Shown here piece by piece: positions 1 to 5,336 of a stretch of 10,092 nt of DNA. The notes under the pieces are model-generated. The model was not told where the DNA came from, made no database searches, and saw nothing but the letters and a program-made list of their open reading frames with translations. The DNA lies in contig JAQTNZ010000047.1 in the NCBI GenBank assembly GCA_028713595.1, forward strand, positions 1-10,092, in the 5' to 3' direction. The stretch is from Methylovulum sp. (GTDB lineage Bacteria; Pseudomonadota; Gammaproteobacteria; Methylococcales; Methylomonadaceae). The position numbers and the translations under genes are program-made. The first letter of the stretch is position 1, and each line of letters begins with the position of its first letter.

Positions 1-1584
1 ATACAAAAAATAGCCCCAACCGGAGACCACTAGGGCGCTGCTGAGCAAGGCGGAGGGGAGCCATGAGGTTTCGCCCATTTTCGGCCATATATTGCCGAGC
101 ATGTCCTGCAACATAAAACGCCCGACACGGGTACCGGCATCCAGTGTGGTCAGGATAAAAATGGCTTCAAACATGATGGCGAAGTGATACCACACCGCCA
201 ACATGCCTTTGCCAAAGGCACTGCCAAAAATGCTGGCCATGCCCACCGCTAACGAGGGAGCACCGCCGGTTCTGGCAAACAGGGTAGTTTCACCCATGTC
301 CCGCGCCAGAGCCTGCATTTGCTCGACCGTAACCGGAAACCCCCACGAGGAAATTTTTGCCACCGCATCCACAGCTTCTTTACCGACAACCCCTGCGGAG
401 CTGTTGATGGCGAAAAATACGCCGGGGTCGAGGACAGTGGCGGCAATCATCGCCATGATCGCTACAAACGATTCCAACAACATGCCGCCGTAGCCGATGG
501 TGCAGATATCACGCTCATTAGATAACAGCTTGGGTGTAGTGCCGGAGGCGACCAGGGAGTGGAAGCCGGAAATCGCCCCGCAAGCGATGGTGATGAATAC
601 GAACGGGAACAGTTTACCGCCAAATATCGGCCCGGTGCCATCGACAAACTGGGTGATCGCGGGCATTTTTACTGAGGGTTGCAGGATGATGATCGCCACT
701 GCCAACAAAGTGATAGTACCTAGCTTCATATAGGTGGACAAATAATCACGCGGGGCCAGCAGCATCCAGACCGGCAAAATCGCCGCCGCAAACCCGTAGG
801 CCATAATCCACCACGCCAAGGTCAAGCCTTCATGGTCGAACCAGCTATGCAAAACCGGATGCTGGTCAACCCAACTGCCGCCGACCACCGACAACAACAG
901 CAACAGCACCCCGATGGCCGAGGCCTCCAGCACTTGCCCCGGGCGCAGGTAGCGCATATAAACGCCGACAAAGATGGCAATCGGGATGGTCGCGGACACT
1001 GTAAACGTCGCCCATGGGCTATGCTTCATGGCATTGACCACAATCAAACCCAACACCGAAATCAGGATAATCATAATGGCGAAGGTGGCGATTAATGCCG
1101 CCGTACCACCCAACGCCCCCAGCTCATCCCGCGCCATTTGCCCTAAACTTCTGGCATCGCGGCGGGTGGACATGAACAATGTCACCATATCTTGCACACA
1201 ACCGCCCAGCACCGAGCCAAACAATATCCATAACGTGCCGGGTAAATAGCCAAACTGCGCCGCCAGTGTCGGCCCCACCAAAGGCCCAGGCCCTGCTATC
1301 GCGGCGAAATGGTGGCCAAAGACTATCCATTTATGGGTGGGGGTAAAGTCATGACCATTGTCCAAGCGTTCGGCGGGGGTGGCGCGGCTAGGGTCAACCA
1401 CCAGTACGGTAGCCGCTATCCATGCGGCATAAAAGCGGAAAGCCAGCGCGTAGACGCACAAGGCGGCGGTGACAAACCAGAGGGCATTGATGCTCTCGCC
1501 ACGCTGTAGGGCAATGCCGCCGACCGCCGCCGCGCCGATAATGGCAATGGTCAGCCAGATAAGCGTTTGTTGTAGGTTTTTCAT
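1..1584 (-). CDS. cstA: Carbon starvation protein A (peptide/pyruvate transporter), C-terminus cut by window edge
   Basis: Reading the minus strand from the ATG at 1584 gives 528 uninterrupted codons to base 1, so this is the N-terminal three quarters of a protein of about 700 residues (E. coli CstA is 701). It is a polytopic inner-membrane protein of the CstA/BtsT family, which imports pyruvate and has been linked to peptide uptake during carbon limitation. Family landmarks visible: [10 protein letters not shown] near 27-36, [16 protein letters not shown] at 90-105, [18 protein letters not shown] at 139-156, a run of hydrophobic helices, [17 protein letters not shown] at 338-354, and [19 protein letters not shown] at 472-490. 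The start fits the family N-terminus; the ribosome site is weak (GAGCA). The gene lies 247 bases downstream of the PEP-CTERM gene and is probably transcribed separately. The family assignment is secure; the substrate is inferred from homologues. Confidence 0.94.
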
Positions 1585-1634
1585 GGGGATGTGCTCGTAT
1601 AGGTCAGGGTTAAGGCCTAAGCACTTAACTGTCT

Positions 1635-1664
1635 ATTATAGGGAAGGGAAAGCGAAGGCCTTAA
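1635..1664 (-). promoter_or_regulatory. Possible cstA promoter with flanking inverted repeat
   Basis: The minus strand has a perfect TATAAT at 1640-1635, which would start a transcript near 1628, 44 bases before the cstA ATG. The -35 is poor (TTAAGG at 1664-1659, 18-base spacer), suggesting activator dependence. A 9-base inverted repeat, TTAAGGCCT at 1610-1618 and AGGCCTTAA at 1656-1664, is centred on the -10. Function is inferred from position only. Confidence 0.35.
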
Positions 1665-1769
1665 GAAGGGCAAGCCTTAGCCATCGGCCATATTGGCACA
1701 GAATGGCAAAATTAAGCAAGATTGTCATGCCCTATTGCCGTTAAAAACGGGCGCTTTTTGAGAATGGGA

Positions 1770-1806
1770 AAGCCCGTACCGACCAATGATTGGCTGGTAC
1801 GGGCTT
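1770..1806 (-). terminator. Hairpin terminator after the PEP-CTERM gene
   Basis: Perfect 11-base arms, AAGCCCGTACC (1770-1780) and GGTACGGGCTT (1796-1806), enclose a second stem CCAAT/ATTGG. The hairpin begins 25 bases past the stop codon at 1832. On the minus strand it is followed by TCCCATTCTC, a pyrimidine run rather than a true T-tract, so termination strength is uncertain. Confidence 0.6.
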
Positions 1807-1831
1807 GGCAGATAGCCGCTAACTGTATGCG

Positions 1832-2407
1832 TTAACGGCTTTGGCGGCGGCGTTGCCAAACAAACGCGCCGGCACTGATAGCCAACAGCGGCAAAGTGGC
1901 CGGTACGGGAACGGGGCTGGTTTCGCTCATAGTCCAATTAGCGGCTTGGAAAGGCGTGCCATAAAAGGTGTTGTTACTAAAATCAGCGCCGGATTGGTAG
2001 GTAAAATCCGAAAAGCCTTGCGTGGTGGCAATGCCATTGGCATTATTGATGACCACATAGAGGTCACAGCCGCTAGAATCGCCGCTGAGGGTATGGCAAG
2101 CATAGAAATCCATGAAGCTACCATCCAGCGTTACCGCCGGAATGGCGCTTCCCGATCCCAAAAAAACATCGGCACTGCTGGTAAAAGACATTGACGGTTG
2201 CGCCAAGGTGTCAAAGATCAGGTTTTGGATGGCACTGACATCGACCGTATTGTTATCGCCTTGCAGCGTCCCCACCATTTCACCACTTATCGTATGACTG
2301 GTACTACCAGTGTCCGTAAAAGAATAGGAAAAATCAAATATACTGGCGTTAACCTGGGGTACGGCCAAAGCCAGCGCAAGGCCTAGGGTAATTGCTATTT
2401 TGTTCAT
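1832..2407 (-). CDS. Secreted PEP-CTERM (VPVPAT-type) sorting-signal protein
   Basis: A 191-residue exported protein. An N-terminal signal peptide (charged MNK, hydrophobic core to about residue 19, likely cleavage after VNA at 21) precedes a Ser/Thr/Asp-rich body without recognisable enzymatic motifs. Cys104 and Cys114 could form a disulfide. The C-terminus is tripartite like exosortase substrates: VPVPAT at 166-171, a hydrophobic helix at about 172-184, then WQRRRQSR. The classic Pro-Glu-Pro is replaced by Pro-Val-Pro, nearer the VPLPA-CTERM subclass. By analogy the protein is cut and anchored or released by an exosortase and is part of the cell surface or exopolysaccharide matrix; no exosortase gene lies in this window. 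The start is fixed by AAAGAG seven bases before the ATG. A sigma-54-like promoter lies upstream and a hairpin terminator downstream, so it is probably monocistronic. Confidence 0.87.
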   Translation of the reverse strand: MNKIAITLGLALALAVPQVNASIFDFSYSFTDTGSTSHTISGEMVGTLQGDNNTVDVSAIQNLIFDTLAQPSMSFTSSADVFLGSGSAIPAVTLDGSFMDFYACHTLSGDSSGCDLYVVINNANGIATTQGFSDFTYQSGADFSNNTFYGTPFQAANWTMSETSPVPVPATLPLLAISAGAFVWQRRRQSR

Positions 2408-2446
2408 GCTTATACTCTTTGTATGGGTTAAAAATTTTCAGACATT

Positions 2447-2468
2447 ATTATAAGCAATAACAGTGCCT
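2447..2468 (-). promoter_or_regulatory. Sigma-54-type -24/-12 promoter (overlapping a TATAAT) of the PEP-CTERM gene
   Basis: The minus strand reads AGGCACTGTTATTGCT at 2468-2453. GGCAC and TTGCT match the RpoN consensus TGGCACG-N4-TTGCW, with the obligatory 10 bases between the GG and GC doublets. Transcription would start near 2442, leaving a 35-base leader. A sigma-70-like TATAAT at 2452-2447 overlaps it, with TTTACA at 2477-2472 at a long 19-base spacing, so the sequence alone does not settle which polymerase is used. PEP-CTERM genes are known to depend on RpoN with PrsK/PrsR in some floc-forming bacteria, which favours the first reading. Confidence 0.5.
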
Positions 2469-2478
2469 TTATGTAAAA

Positions 2479-2509
2479 GTGGTTTATTATCAAAATAATA
2501 AGAAACCAC
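2479..2509. promoter_or_regulatory. Inverted repeat upstream of the PEP-CTERM promoter
   Basis: GTGGTTT (2479-2485) is mirrored by AAACCAC (2503-2509), and inside these arms TATTAT/ATAATA pairs around CAAA. It spans roughly -37 to -67 of the predicted start, closer than a usual RpoN enhancer site. It may be an operator or activator site, or a chance AT-rich palindrome. Confidence 0.35.
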
Positions 2510-2637
2510 AAACACCCAGTGCTGTAAAAAAAACCGACAGCCAGCTACCCTAAAAACACAGCTATAGTTTACATCTTTTAAGGTGATTATCCTTTGACTT
2601 AGGTTGACGGCTATTGCATCGCCAACTCAACCGATAG

Positions 2638-2785: not shown

Positions 2786-2797
2786 ACCCTAGAGCCG
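2786..2797 (+). repeat. Left 12-bp target-site duplication of the MITE
   Basis: ACCCTAGAGCCG, identical to bases 3094-3105, directly abuts the left terminal inverted repeat. The bases outside both copies differ, so the duplication is exactly 12 bases long. Confidence 0.8.
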
Positions 2798-3093
2798 CAC
2801 TGCCATTAAGTTAATGGAATTATTTTAACAATCAGACTGTTAAGAAGCACACACTCATTCCCACACGCTGTGTGGGAATGCCGTTAGGACGCGCCGCGTC
2901 CCGTTCCACACACCGCAGCGCGGGTGGCATGGCATTCCCACGCGGCGCGCGGGAACGAGAGTTATGCTTTTATCTTGTTGAAATTACAGGCACAAATCCT
3001 TAACTTAATGGCAGTGACGCGGCGCGTGGGAACGAGAGTTTTTCATTTATCTTATTGAAATTACAGGCACAATTCCTTAACTTAATGGCAGTG
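2798..3093. mobile_element. MITE-like non-autonomous element, 296 bp, likely IS4-family ends
   Basis: The element begins CACTGCCATTAAGTTAA and ends with its exact reverse complement TTAACTTAATGGCAGTG (3077-3093). Allowing one extra base, the inverted repeat continues through GGAATT. It is bracketed by a perfect 12-base direct repeat. There is no transposase and no credible open frame, so it must be moved in trans. A 10-13 base duplication is typical of several IS4-family groups, and the ends share the TGCC...AGTTAAGGA pattern of IS4 as I remember it; the family call is inference. The interior is GC-rich, with a perfect 11-base-stem hairpin (2856-2880), a GGACGCG/CGCGTCC palindrome (2887-2901) and GGGAACGAGAG units. 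The right end is duplicated in tandem. Confidence 0.78.
2856..2880. repeat. Perfect 11-bp-stem hairpin inside the MITE
   Basis: CATTCCCACAC, loop GCT, GTGTGGGAATG. A related imperfect hairpin TTCCCACGC/GCGCGGGAA follows at 2935-2955. The CATTCCCAC...GTGGGAACGAG vocabulary is that of REP-like dispersed palindromes seen in many gammaproteobacteria (from memory). Confidence 0.8.
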
Positions 3094-3094
3094 A
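2941..3094 (+). repeat. Tandem duplication, two 77-bp units
   Basis: Unit 1 is 2941-3017 and unit 2 is 3018-3094; by hand alignment they differ at 6 of 77 positions. Each unit runs from CGCGGCGCG, GGGAACGAGAGTT through to TTAACTTAATGGCAGTG, so the right terminal repeat of the MITE occurs twice, at 3000-3016 and 3077-3093. Confidence 0.9.
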
Positions 3095-3105
3095 CCCTAG
3101 AGCCG
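3094..3105 (+). repeat. Right 12-bp target-site duplication of the MITE
   Basis: ACCCTAGAGCCG, identical to 2786-2797, immediately follows the right terminal inverted repeat ending at 3093. Confidence 0.8.
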
Positions 3106-3236: not shown

Positions 3237-5336
3237 TTATTTCCCCAAATTTAAACCCAGCACGATAAGCTGCCATGTTTTTCCGCTGTCTTGGGAACGA
3301 TATAACCGCTCCGAAGTAGTGGCGAAAATGGTGTGATCGGTTGCATAAGAAGCAGAGAAGCCGATTGTCGAAGACGTTGCCGCCGGAAAATCATTCCAAG
3401 GCCCAAAGAGGAAGTTGCTTGCTATCAAACGGACTGCAATGGGGCCGAATGTCTTGCCACCATTTTGGGATTTAAAAAGCCCCTTCCCCTGCACCGCCAT
3501 AAGGATAGTTTTATCAACGGCATAATTGGGCGATAATGCGATAGCCCTAATATTCCCATCAACGCCACAGGCATCACAGGACACTTTACTCCAAGTATCA
3601 AACCCATCCGTACTTTTGAAAAGACCTTGGGTGCTGGCAATAAAGATAGTCTTATCAACCGTGTAATTGGGGGAAAACGCCAGTTTTGACTCTATGCCAA
3701 AAGTGGATTCGGAACCTTTAAGAATCCATGAGCCGCCACTATTGTGGCTTATATAAACATCACCCTTGCCTAGCGCCGCCACGAGCGTATTGTCATTGGT
3801 ATAGTTTGGCGACACTGCCAATCCTGTAACATGACCAATATGCTTTTTTTTCTGATCAAAAACTGGCGTGAAGGTTATGCCTGCATCGGTAGAACGGTAA
3901 ATGCTTGAATTTCTAGTCCCAACAAAGAACGTCGCATCGTTGGCAAATCCAGGTGATAACGCGATAATGGTAGGGAAGTCACTGCGCGGAAGGTCATGCT
4001 TTACCCACGTTTCGCCGCGGTCAGTCGATTTGCCAATAGTATACTTGCCCGTGCTAAAAAACATGGTGCTATCATTTTGGAAGTTGGGCGAAAAAACCAC
4101 GTCATCGCCGCGAGACTTGATGTTGTTTGCAATTTCTTGCCAGCTACCGCCATTATCAACCGATTTAAAAAGGCCGTTCCCGTAAGTGCTGACCACAAGA
4201 TTAGGATCCAGCGAATAATTAGGGGATATTGCGAAGCTTATTATCAGTGAGGTCGAAAGCGTAGTTAATTGGCCCCAGTTTTTTCCCCCGTCAGTAGATT
4301 GGAATAAGCCGGCAAATCCGCACAGGAACAGGGTTTTGTCACTAAGAAAATTGGGTGACATGCCAATGCCCTGAAAATCAGGTGCTTTTTGTAAAGCCGC
4401 CTGAGGCGTGGTGCTTAAGCCCGTATTATATTTTTTCCAAGCCAAACCACCGTCATTGGAAATAAAGATCGCTTTTGTCCATGTTGATACAAATGCGGTG
4501 GCATCAGCCGAATAGCCAGGTGACATGACGATTGAGCGGATATTTAAGTCTTCGATGCCGGCATTCATTTGCGCAAACGAGGCCCCACCATCGACTGTGC
4601 GAAAAACACCGCACTTGCTAGTCCCTACAAAAAAGGTATTGCGCAGTAATGGATTTTGTAGCGTGCCTATACTGGAAATTTCACCACAGCCAGAAAATTG
4701 GTACAGTTGTGTCCAAGTGTCGCCCTTATCTGCCGAAAGTGACAAGACCCCATTATTATCCCCAACCAACACCTCGAACCCGTCAGACGAATTCCAGCCA
4801 AAACCTGCAATTGCCGATAAGGGAACTGCATTATCGTAAACTTTAAGCCATTGCGCGCCGCCATTATCAGTCCTGTAAAGCCCGCGTTGCAAACCGACAG
4901 CAAAGGCGACATCGGCACTGGCCGGGGGCGTATACAGCTTTGAAAAAGCCAACGTATCCAAACCTTGGTTGGATTTATGCCACGACTCGCCGGCATTTTC
5001 AGACTTATAAATGCCATCGCCTTCGGTGCTTAAATATAACGCGGACGGAAAGCTTGGCGGAATCGCCATAAACTGAAGTTCAGTTGTATTATCGATGCCT
5101 TGTATGAGGTGTTTCCACGATTTACCGCGATTGGTTGACTTTACTACATTGCCGCGCACGATACTATAAACAGTATGGTCATCTTTGTAGGCGGGCGATG
5201 TAATAACATCAAAGATGACATCGTGAGGCACATGGGCGGAAACAGGTAAGGGAAAGCAGAAAAAAACGGCCAAAACTGATACAACCCCTGTAAAAAATGT
5301 CGCGGGCCTAGCGTTAGCGATATTGCCTAGCTTCAT
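3237..5336 (-). CDS. Secreted Asp-box (BNR/sortilin-like) beta-propeller protein
   Basis: A 699-residue exported protein of unknown substrate. Residues 1-34 are a signal peptide (hydrophobic core 14-31, cleavage after VSA), giving a mature N-terminus HVPHDV. The rest consists of about 45-residue repeats with Asp-boxes (S-x-D-x-G-x-x-W/F) starting at 67, 112, 156, 201, 247, 293, 347, 392, 437, 482, 530, 575, 623 and 681; the one at 575 (STDGFDTW) has lost its glycine. Fourteen blades would fit two seven-bladed propellers, as in Vps10/GH74-like folds, but no catalytic sialidase or glycosidase residues are recognisable. Most blades also carry SPNY/F-x2-D-x-T just before a strand. AGGAG seven bases before the ATG fixes the start. 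It has its own terminator and probably a CRP/FNR-type promoter. A binding or scaffolding role outside the cytoplasm is likely; enzymatic activity is unproven. Confidence 0.88.
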   Translation of the reverse strand: MKLGNIANARPATFFTGVVSVLAVFFCFPLPVSAHVPHDVIFDVITSPAYKDDHTVYSIVRGNVVKSTNRGKSWKHLIQGIDNTTELQFMAIPPSFPSALYLSTEGDGIYKSENAGESWHKSNQGLDTLAFSKLYTPPASADVAFAVGLQRGLYRTDNGGAQWLKVYDNAVPLSAIAGFGWNSSDGFEVLVGDNNGVLSLSADKGDTWTQLYQFSGCGEISSIGTLQNPLLRNTFFVGTSKCGVFRTVDGGASFAQMNAGIEDLNIRSIVMSPGYSADATAFVSTWTKAIFISNDGGLAWKKYNTGLSTTPQAALQKAPDFQGIGMSPNFLSDKTLFLCGFAGLFQSTDGGKNWGQLTTLSTSLIISFAISPNYSLDPNLVVSTYGNGLFKSVDNGGSWQEIANNIKSRGDDVVFSPNFQNDSTMFFSTGKYTIGKSTDRGETWVKHDLPRSDFPTIIALSPGFANDATFFVGTRNSSIYRSTDAGITFTPVFDQKKKHIGHVTGLAVSPNYTNDNTLVAALGKGDVYISHNSGGSWILKGSESTFGIESKLAFSPNYTVDKTIFIASTQGLFKSTDGFDTWSKVSCDACGVDGNIRAIALSPNYAVDKTILMAVQGKGLFKSQNGGKTFGPIAVRLIASNFLFGPWNDFPAATSSTIGFSASYATDHTIFATTSERLYRSQDSGKTWQLIVLGLNLGK

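Follow-up and report, generated by a model that had tools for sequence, protein, structure and literature searches.

Among the non-coding repeats of bacteria, dispersed palindromes are widespread. For one class of them, the repetitive extragenic palindromes (REPs), the part of the literature available to us describes movement by transposases termed RAYTs, a GTAG motif that marks the RAYT-linked REPs, and REP dimers seated within palindromes, and it names CGTC repeats as a kind for which no mobilising enzyme is known (PMC3733652). Palindromes of this type can also lie inside or underneath other mobile DNA. QMITE2 of Coxiella burnetii is described, in the sections available, as a 150-190-bp MITE with 7-11-nt duplications and a GTAG REP inside, of which the smaller copies are REPs without terminal inverted repeats (TIRs) (PMC5896051). 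For ISRm22, an IS4-family element of Sinorhizobium meliloti, nine copies located in REPs are reported in the portion available (PMC1525189). Finally, the available text on the hupL MITE of Candidatus Thiomargarita nelsonii gives 19-bp inverted repeats, 10-bp direct repeats and a presence in 260/439 contigs, and states that its authors did not find the parental insertion sequence (IS) (PMC4853749). Here we analyse a stretch of 10,092 nucleotides from Methylovulum sp., referred to as the window. It holds a well-supported IS4-derived MITE, and the wider pattern to which this element belongs, one pair of ends with many different palindromes, is a variant of the known kinds and not a new category.

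Results

The 296-bp element in the window is a composite

The features of the element are listed in Table 1. Its 17-bp TIRs pair at 17/17 positions, and the target duplication that adjoins both ends is free of mismatches (12/12). When up to three mismatches were allowed, the 17-mer was found three times in the window, compared to 0.03 times expected from shuffled windows. The extra copy, the third TIR, closes the first unit of a 77-bp direct repeat, therefore the basic element, with a single left and a single right end, spans only 219 bp (2798-3016), and what extends over 296 bp is a composite of MITEs and not one simple MITE. A preliminary description of this DNA had presented an intact MITE with 17-bp TIRs and a perfect 12-bp duplication; the TIRs and the duplication stand, but the third TIR and the 77-bp repeat show that the element is not simply intact. 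In other respects it looks like a MITE, being short, without transposase coding (the 296 bp hold no internal ORF of at least 80 aa), bounded by TIRs with an abutting duplication and present in multiple copies with differing duplications, but it carries more than a single pair of ends.

Table 1 Sequence features of the composite element and its borders (positions in the window)
Feature	Position	Strand	Remarks
12-bp target duplication, left copy, ACCCTAGAGCCG	2786..2797	+	Exact direct repeat of 3094-3105
Left TIR, CACTGCCATTAAGTTAA	2798..2814	+	Exact complement of 3000-3016 and 3077-3093; ends shared with IS4-family ISs of relatives
GC-rich palindromic interior, type A	2851..2962		Inverted repeat, 81% complementary; similar free palindromes in G029, G015 and G024 (~72-79%)
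Inner (first) right end, 77 bp, with TIR 3000-3016 at its end	2940..3016		71/77 identical to 3017-3093
Inner right TIR	3000..3016	-	0 mismatches to the 17-mer
ACGCGGCGCGT, putative remainder of the hairpin loop hit by the inner copy	3017..3027		Fits the 11-bp target motif; matching left copy missing, inferred
Outer (second) right end, 77 bp	3017..3093		76/77 to contig 10:12792-12868 (L063), 71/77 to its neighbour
Outer right TIR	3077..3093	-	0 mismatches to the 17-mer
12-bp target duplication, right copy	3094..3105	+	Exact direct repeat of 2786-2797

The arms of the interior palindrome lie at 2851-2882 and 2931-2962, and the folding energy of the basic element is -105.9 kcal/mol with RNA parameters. 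The interior had been described as a REP-like GC-rich palindrome, and a GC-rich palindrome it is, but inspection by eye of the ends of this type A palindrome in the window showed no GTAG. A search of the window against Rfam gave no match. The 12-bp duplication fits the target motif described below and has no surrounding hairpin (inverted score 5/14). Both flanking ORFs are on the minus strand: the 191-aa ORF at 1832-2407 gave no Pfam match, and the 699-aa ORF at 3237-5336 has BNR/Sortilin-type repeats. The 191-aa protein ends in VPVPATLPLLAISAGAFVWQRRRQSR, which we take to resemble a PEP-CTERM sorting tail.

Copies with the same boundaries carry their own duplications

The source genome (3.26 Mb, 587 contigs, 77% complete) is that of a probable methane-oxidising bacterium. 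With up to two mismatches it contains 90 + 103 occurrences of the 17-mer, versus 1 + 0 for a reversed-pattern control. Elements were counted in the window and in 58 fetched contig stretches (453,852 bases), which cover the larger part of the contigs with listed copies, and a duplication was scored as kept when 10-12 bp were at least 89% identical. By this measure, 16 of the 53 distinct innermost elements in the fetched part have a kept duplication, 11 of them a perfect one. The 37 elements without are partly nests and nest remnants, and include the innermost pair of the window, where it is the outer pair that has the duplication. Kept duplications were found for 51 of 90 innermost elements in named records (29 perfect) and for 4 of 14 elements of relatives with both flanks (2 perfect). 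Randomly paired flanks of different elements reached the same threshold in only 111 of 20,000 draws, indicating that the 12/12 match in the window is not due to chance and that the ends mark the limits of a unit which has moved. Thus, the further copies with own duplications that the preliminary description had proposed to look for are present, and they bear out its view that a transposase-less element had transposed.

The named loci stem from a scan with an exact 20-mer, which gave at least 115 stretches and is a biased sample; many of the records are metagenome-assembled genomes (MAGs), in which bin errors are possible. Among the matches listed they belong mostly to Methylococcales, Legionellales and Thiotrichales, with Thiocystis, Thiodictyon, Francisellaceae, Competibacteraceae, Advenella, Nitrosomonas, Desulfococcaceae, Geobacter and Nitrospinota as further labels.

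Four elements (L061:16883-17086, L115:3934-4159, L329:301-507 and L331:301-507) have inverted instead of direct flank repeats, which match at 13-14 of 14 positions and extend over 22-61 bp with at most three mismatches. Among random flank pairs, 157 of 19,771 were as inverted as those of these four, and cross-hairpin copying after insertion is a possible origin.

An empty site in a relative, which had also been suggested as a check, was not obtained for the window: genome G021 is collinear with window positions 799-2542 at 89% identity and differs beyond, before the insertion is reached, and G030 matches the downstream gene only. The end of this collinearity, approximately 240 bp before the element, marks a rearrangement border near 2542-2550. 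Queries made of joined flanks gave a match across the joint in 40 of 88 cases, many of them self-matches or hairpin matches, and only L081 was sorted out. For this nested copy (L081:4553) a paralogous empty site is present at four loci, with 92.6-94.3% identity over 87-95 bp and a single copy of the duplication.

Relatives contain a full-length IS4-family IS with the same ends

Duplications of IS4 elements are typically 10-13 bp long; they measure 12 bp in the window and at IS4 of E. coli, and 10-12 bp at the other elements. A search of 12 genomes with PF01609 gave at least 30 matches in all, and 30 loci were fetched. One of these, L263 from a genome of the same genus, has the 17-mer on both sides, and L247 has it on one side. 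The L263 reading frame P0001 comprises 433 residues from stop to stop, the position of its start codon not being fixed, and belongs to the IS4 family (NCBIfam NF033592, 161.5 bits against a cut-off of 115). By eye it shows what we take to be the IS4-type Y(2)R(3)E(6)K motif.

When 301 genomes of the order were searched with P0001, 87 gave matches, distant relatives included. Full-length matches were found at nine of the fetched loci (L265-L273, one per genome, 61-100% identity, query included), and all nine have the 17-mer at both ends with 0-1 mismatch, giving an IS length of 1395-1404 bp. Six of them carry perfect 11-bp duplications, four, judged by their flanks, lie inside CCCAC..GTGGG hairpins, and two (L272 and L273) contain one internal TAG each. 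In G144, five equal-scoring helper copies were listed. Partial matches (L274-L277, L279, L292-L294) were left out of the nine; L275, L279 and L292 have one end and the others none. Among the next 14 fetched loci (L278-L291), which are more distant and mostly 32-38% identical, seven have perfect 10-bp duplications beside related ends such as CAATGCCGTTAAGTTAA.

The preliminary description had pointed to an IS4-family helper, and these full-length ISs with the same 17-bp ends support this. The IS itself occurs in relatives, but the source genome, at 77% completeness in 587 contigs, gave no match to P0001. Judged from the shared ends, the helper would mobilise elements of the window type. An IS4 fragment on contig 352 of the source genome (L118) was considered as a helper and rejected, as no 17-mer was seen at its edges by eye; L118:428-1286 is a broken IS4-type transposase gene with other ends and an adjoining recombinase-like ORF. 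Two Legionella genomes are rich in TIRs, and none of the three PF01609 loci fetched from them (L245, L246 and L256) has these ends. A search for the Nterm_IS4 domain (PF13006) gave no match in any of 14 named genomes. On plasmids, the helper matched 54 records, each with less than 60% identity.

Insertions favour palindromic target sites

Target sites were compared using 88 duplications of 10-12 bp, helpers included (L198 and L344 are the same and entered twice). The consensus of 49 distinct 11-bp duplications is A-(C/G)-G-C-(T/A)-N-A-G-C-(C/G)-T. The palindromy of the 88 duplications is 0.43, compared to 0.25 for random words from the same loci, and in 21 of the 88 at least five of six bases outside the duplication are also complementary, versus 6% of random pairs, thus part of the insertions sit in hairpins. 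The motif CCCAC lies at or directly before 16 of the 88 duplications, and the hairpin TTCCCACGC..GCGTGGGAA is a candidate target whose loop would receive insertions.

The same ends enclose different palindromes

Based on strict cores, the 53 innermost elements of the source genome carry palindromes of type B (32), type A as in the window (9), type C (7) and type D (1), and the four untyped ones appeared B-like (two) and A-like (two) by eye. Core hits in the fetched part of this genome that lie within a TIR pair, within 250 bp of one TIR, or without TIR number 22, 16 and 2 for type A, 36, 6 and 1 for type B, 15, 5 and 2 for type C, 2, 4 and 2 for type D, and 0, 0 and 2 for type F; no hit was obtained with the reversed control, and two hits may stem from the same palindrome, one per arm. 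An earlier set of 23 free type C hits, obtained with short cores, proved mostly due to chance on inspection and was recounted with longer cores. Sub-terminal MITE sequence is kept in the free type A copy L080, which is therefore probably a decayed element.

Relatives add cargo types F and G. Type F is enclosed by the same ends in G032 and G020, Methylotuvimicrobium and Methylomicrobium have the type B palindrome immediately inside the ends, and hairpins of TTCCCGCGAA and CTCCCTCTCC lie between the ends in a Legionellales MAG and in Methylomonas lenta, respectively. At L326:394-679 (G020), the ends surround a CCCCCTTTTTCAAAGAGGGG palindrome, type G, the core of which gave no hit in the fetched part of the source genome. 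The 119-bp element L337:228-346 (G021) has type B sub-terminal sequence without the palindrome, and is either an empty carrier or a deletion product.

Palindromes similar to the window interior also occur without the ends. Of 20 loci fetched for this likeness, 17 lack the 17-mer (up to four mismatches, flanks of ~300 bp, shorter at contig ends), among them all 15 loci of G029, G015 and G024; only L322, L325 and L326 have it. With ~72-79% identity to the window interior, the free palindromes are a repeat of the same kind and not the same copy. No match to the type A interior was found in the plasmid collection. The preliminary description had considered a hybrid in which a dispersed palindrome is spread by IS4-type ends. 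Both the free palindromes in relatives and the other palindromes between the same ends agree with this, although the element is not a single hybrid but one of many carriers.

To what extent the carriers differ is seen in their interiors. Hairpin formation with z < -3 relative to dinucleotide shuffles was found for 135 of 158 distinct innermost elements (median -5.6), namely 48/53 in the source genome, 75/90 in named records and 12/15 in relatives, versus 6/80 control windows from the same loci. The 158 interiors fall into 33 similarity groups, 22 of them singletons, and the largest (94) unites several palindrome types via shared end sequence. The sub-terminal sequence is partly common across types: on one side of type B, 15 of 32 ends tie with another type and 3 are closest to it, and 13 of 14 type C ends are closest to their own type.

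Some cargo types lie beside Y1-transposase genes

Cargo types C, D and F carry GTAG. A 177-aa Y1_Tnp-type ORF of the single-contig, same-genus genome G033 has the type C half palindrome GTCGGGTTACGCTATCGCTAACCCGACCTAC, free of mismatches, 34 bp upstream of its start; the Pfam score of this ORF is near the Y1_Tnp cut-off. In G020 a type F palindrome starts ~50 bp downstream of a Y1_Tnp ORF. Types C and F thus appear next to transposase genes of another class, and the MITE ends would give such cargo a second mobility route. In 22 Y1_Tnp loci of up to 3 kb, a single type B core was present, located in L347 at 148 bases ahead of the match, the longer type A core GTTCCCACGC was absent, and types A and B were not found within 600 bp of the Y1_Tnp genes in these loci. 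A search for Y1_Tnp in the source genome gave no match. Of note, five Y1_Tnp-type genes of the same genus (L351, L355, L357, L362 and L365) each lie beside a different GTAG-tagged palindrome, and several RAYT/REP systems may coexist in the genus.

Origin of the doubled right end

Our reading of the window element is that of an IS4-derived MITE with a palindromic interior, a collapsed nest of two copies, moved by the helper in trans, and we put its probability at roughly 75%. Nests are not restricted to the window: the fetched part of the source genome has three complete ones (LLRR), five of the LRR form, that of the window included, and five of the LLR form.

The 296-bp composite might instead have transposed as one unit, so that the nesting took place elsewhere and the 12-bp duplication is its own. 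The duplication does surround the composite, and contig 85 holds another copy with one left and two right ends that is 86% identical over positions 2-296. However, the second right end of that copy opens with a different hairpin half and its flanks share only a partial duplication, so that it may be an independent nest, and we consider transposition of the composite unlikely.

Improbable, too, is an origin in which a 219-bp element was already in place and its terminal 77 bp were then duplicated in tandem through slippage or unequal exchange. Such an event would account for two 77-bp units that directly adjoin each other with the same length and orientation, and for a first unit whose best outside match (72/80, L097) is no closer than its neighbour (71/77). 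The second unit, however, is closer to contig 10 than to this neighbour (Table 1), and therefore nested insertion followed by deletion is favoured over a fresh tandem duplication. This relatedness argument is one-sided, as the inner right end has no clearly closer outside relative. Further points against a tandem duplication are the complete nests in the same genome and the start of the repeat, as the outer right end begins exactly at a target-like hairpin loop. Recombination between palindromes or copying across hairpins, giving ends and flank repeats without any transposition, would fit the inverted flank repeats at four elements (L061, L115, L329 and L331) but is very improbable in view of the many perfect duplications in non-palindromic flanks, those of the window among them, and at full-length ISs with the same ends.

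For the nested insertion we propose the following course. The helper transposase would bind the 17-bp ends and excise the element, and the excised element would be joined to a GC-rich palindromic site with a staggered cut of 11-12 bp, so that the duplication would arise; the DNA between the ends would be free to vary and would usually be a long palindrome. In the simplest order of events for the window, a first element would have inserted at ACCCTAGAGCCG, and a second copy would have entered the hairpin loop ACGCGGCGCGT of the first. The two left ends would then have been present as directly repeated sequence, and a deletion between them would have removed the left half of the outer copy, leaving a single left end, both right ends and the outer duplication. 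We infer trans mobilisation, this order of events and the deletion, and the nesting likewise, at a locus where the left duplication of the inner copy is gone and no intermediate was seen.

Discussion

A broader, tentative proposal is that a single IS4-type end pair might serve as a general vehicle for palindromes, which, across several bacterial orders, has repeatedly taken up unrelated dispersed palindromes, both RAYT-linked GTAG REPs and orphan ones, is moved by an ordinary DDE transposase, and inserts anew into hairpin loops, its own cargo included. If true, this would offer a route by which palindromic repeats that lack their own transposase can spread. With a helper, its ends, a target motif and a natural panel of hairpin interiors at hand, carriage of palindromes by a DDE enzyme can now be tested. 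Nesting into self-carried hairpins could also explain how clusters of intergenic repeats grow and shrink.

The searched literature full text did not contain the string CACTGCCATTAAGTTAAG, and searched titles and abstracts, a set outside of which lie subscription journals and ISfinder, held no description of one end pair with differing palindromes. Thiomargarita records contain elements with window-type ends; a kinship between the hupL MITE and the window element is a lead only, drawn from the description of the former (PMC4853749). ISRm22, as far as its available description goes, differs in being a full IS and not a MITE, and in not carrying its target palindrome (PMC1525189). QMITE2, in the account available, has one kind of interior and an IS1111 element that targets it, whereas here one end pair holds many palindromes and an IS4 helper has been identified (PMC5896051). 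The ends are similar to those of IS4 of E. coli K-12, the family prototype, with 15/20 bases alike on both sides; the K-12 copy has a 12-bp duplication as well, and the helper with window-type ends falls into the NCBIfam IS4 family. However, this helper is only 25% identical to insG over 322 residues and represents another subgroup, Nterm_IS4 being absent from the 14 genomes, and the window element itself has no transposase. Finally, cargo types C, D and F share GTAG with the REP/RAYT systems, and C and F lie beside Y1-transposase genes of the same genus; compared to those systems as described in the available part of the source, the REPs studied here lie also between IS4-type ends (PMC3733652).
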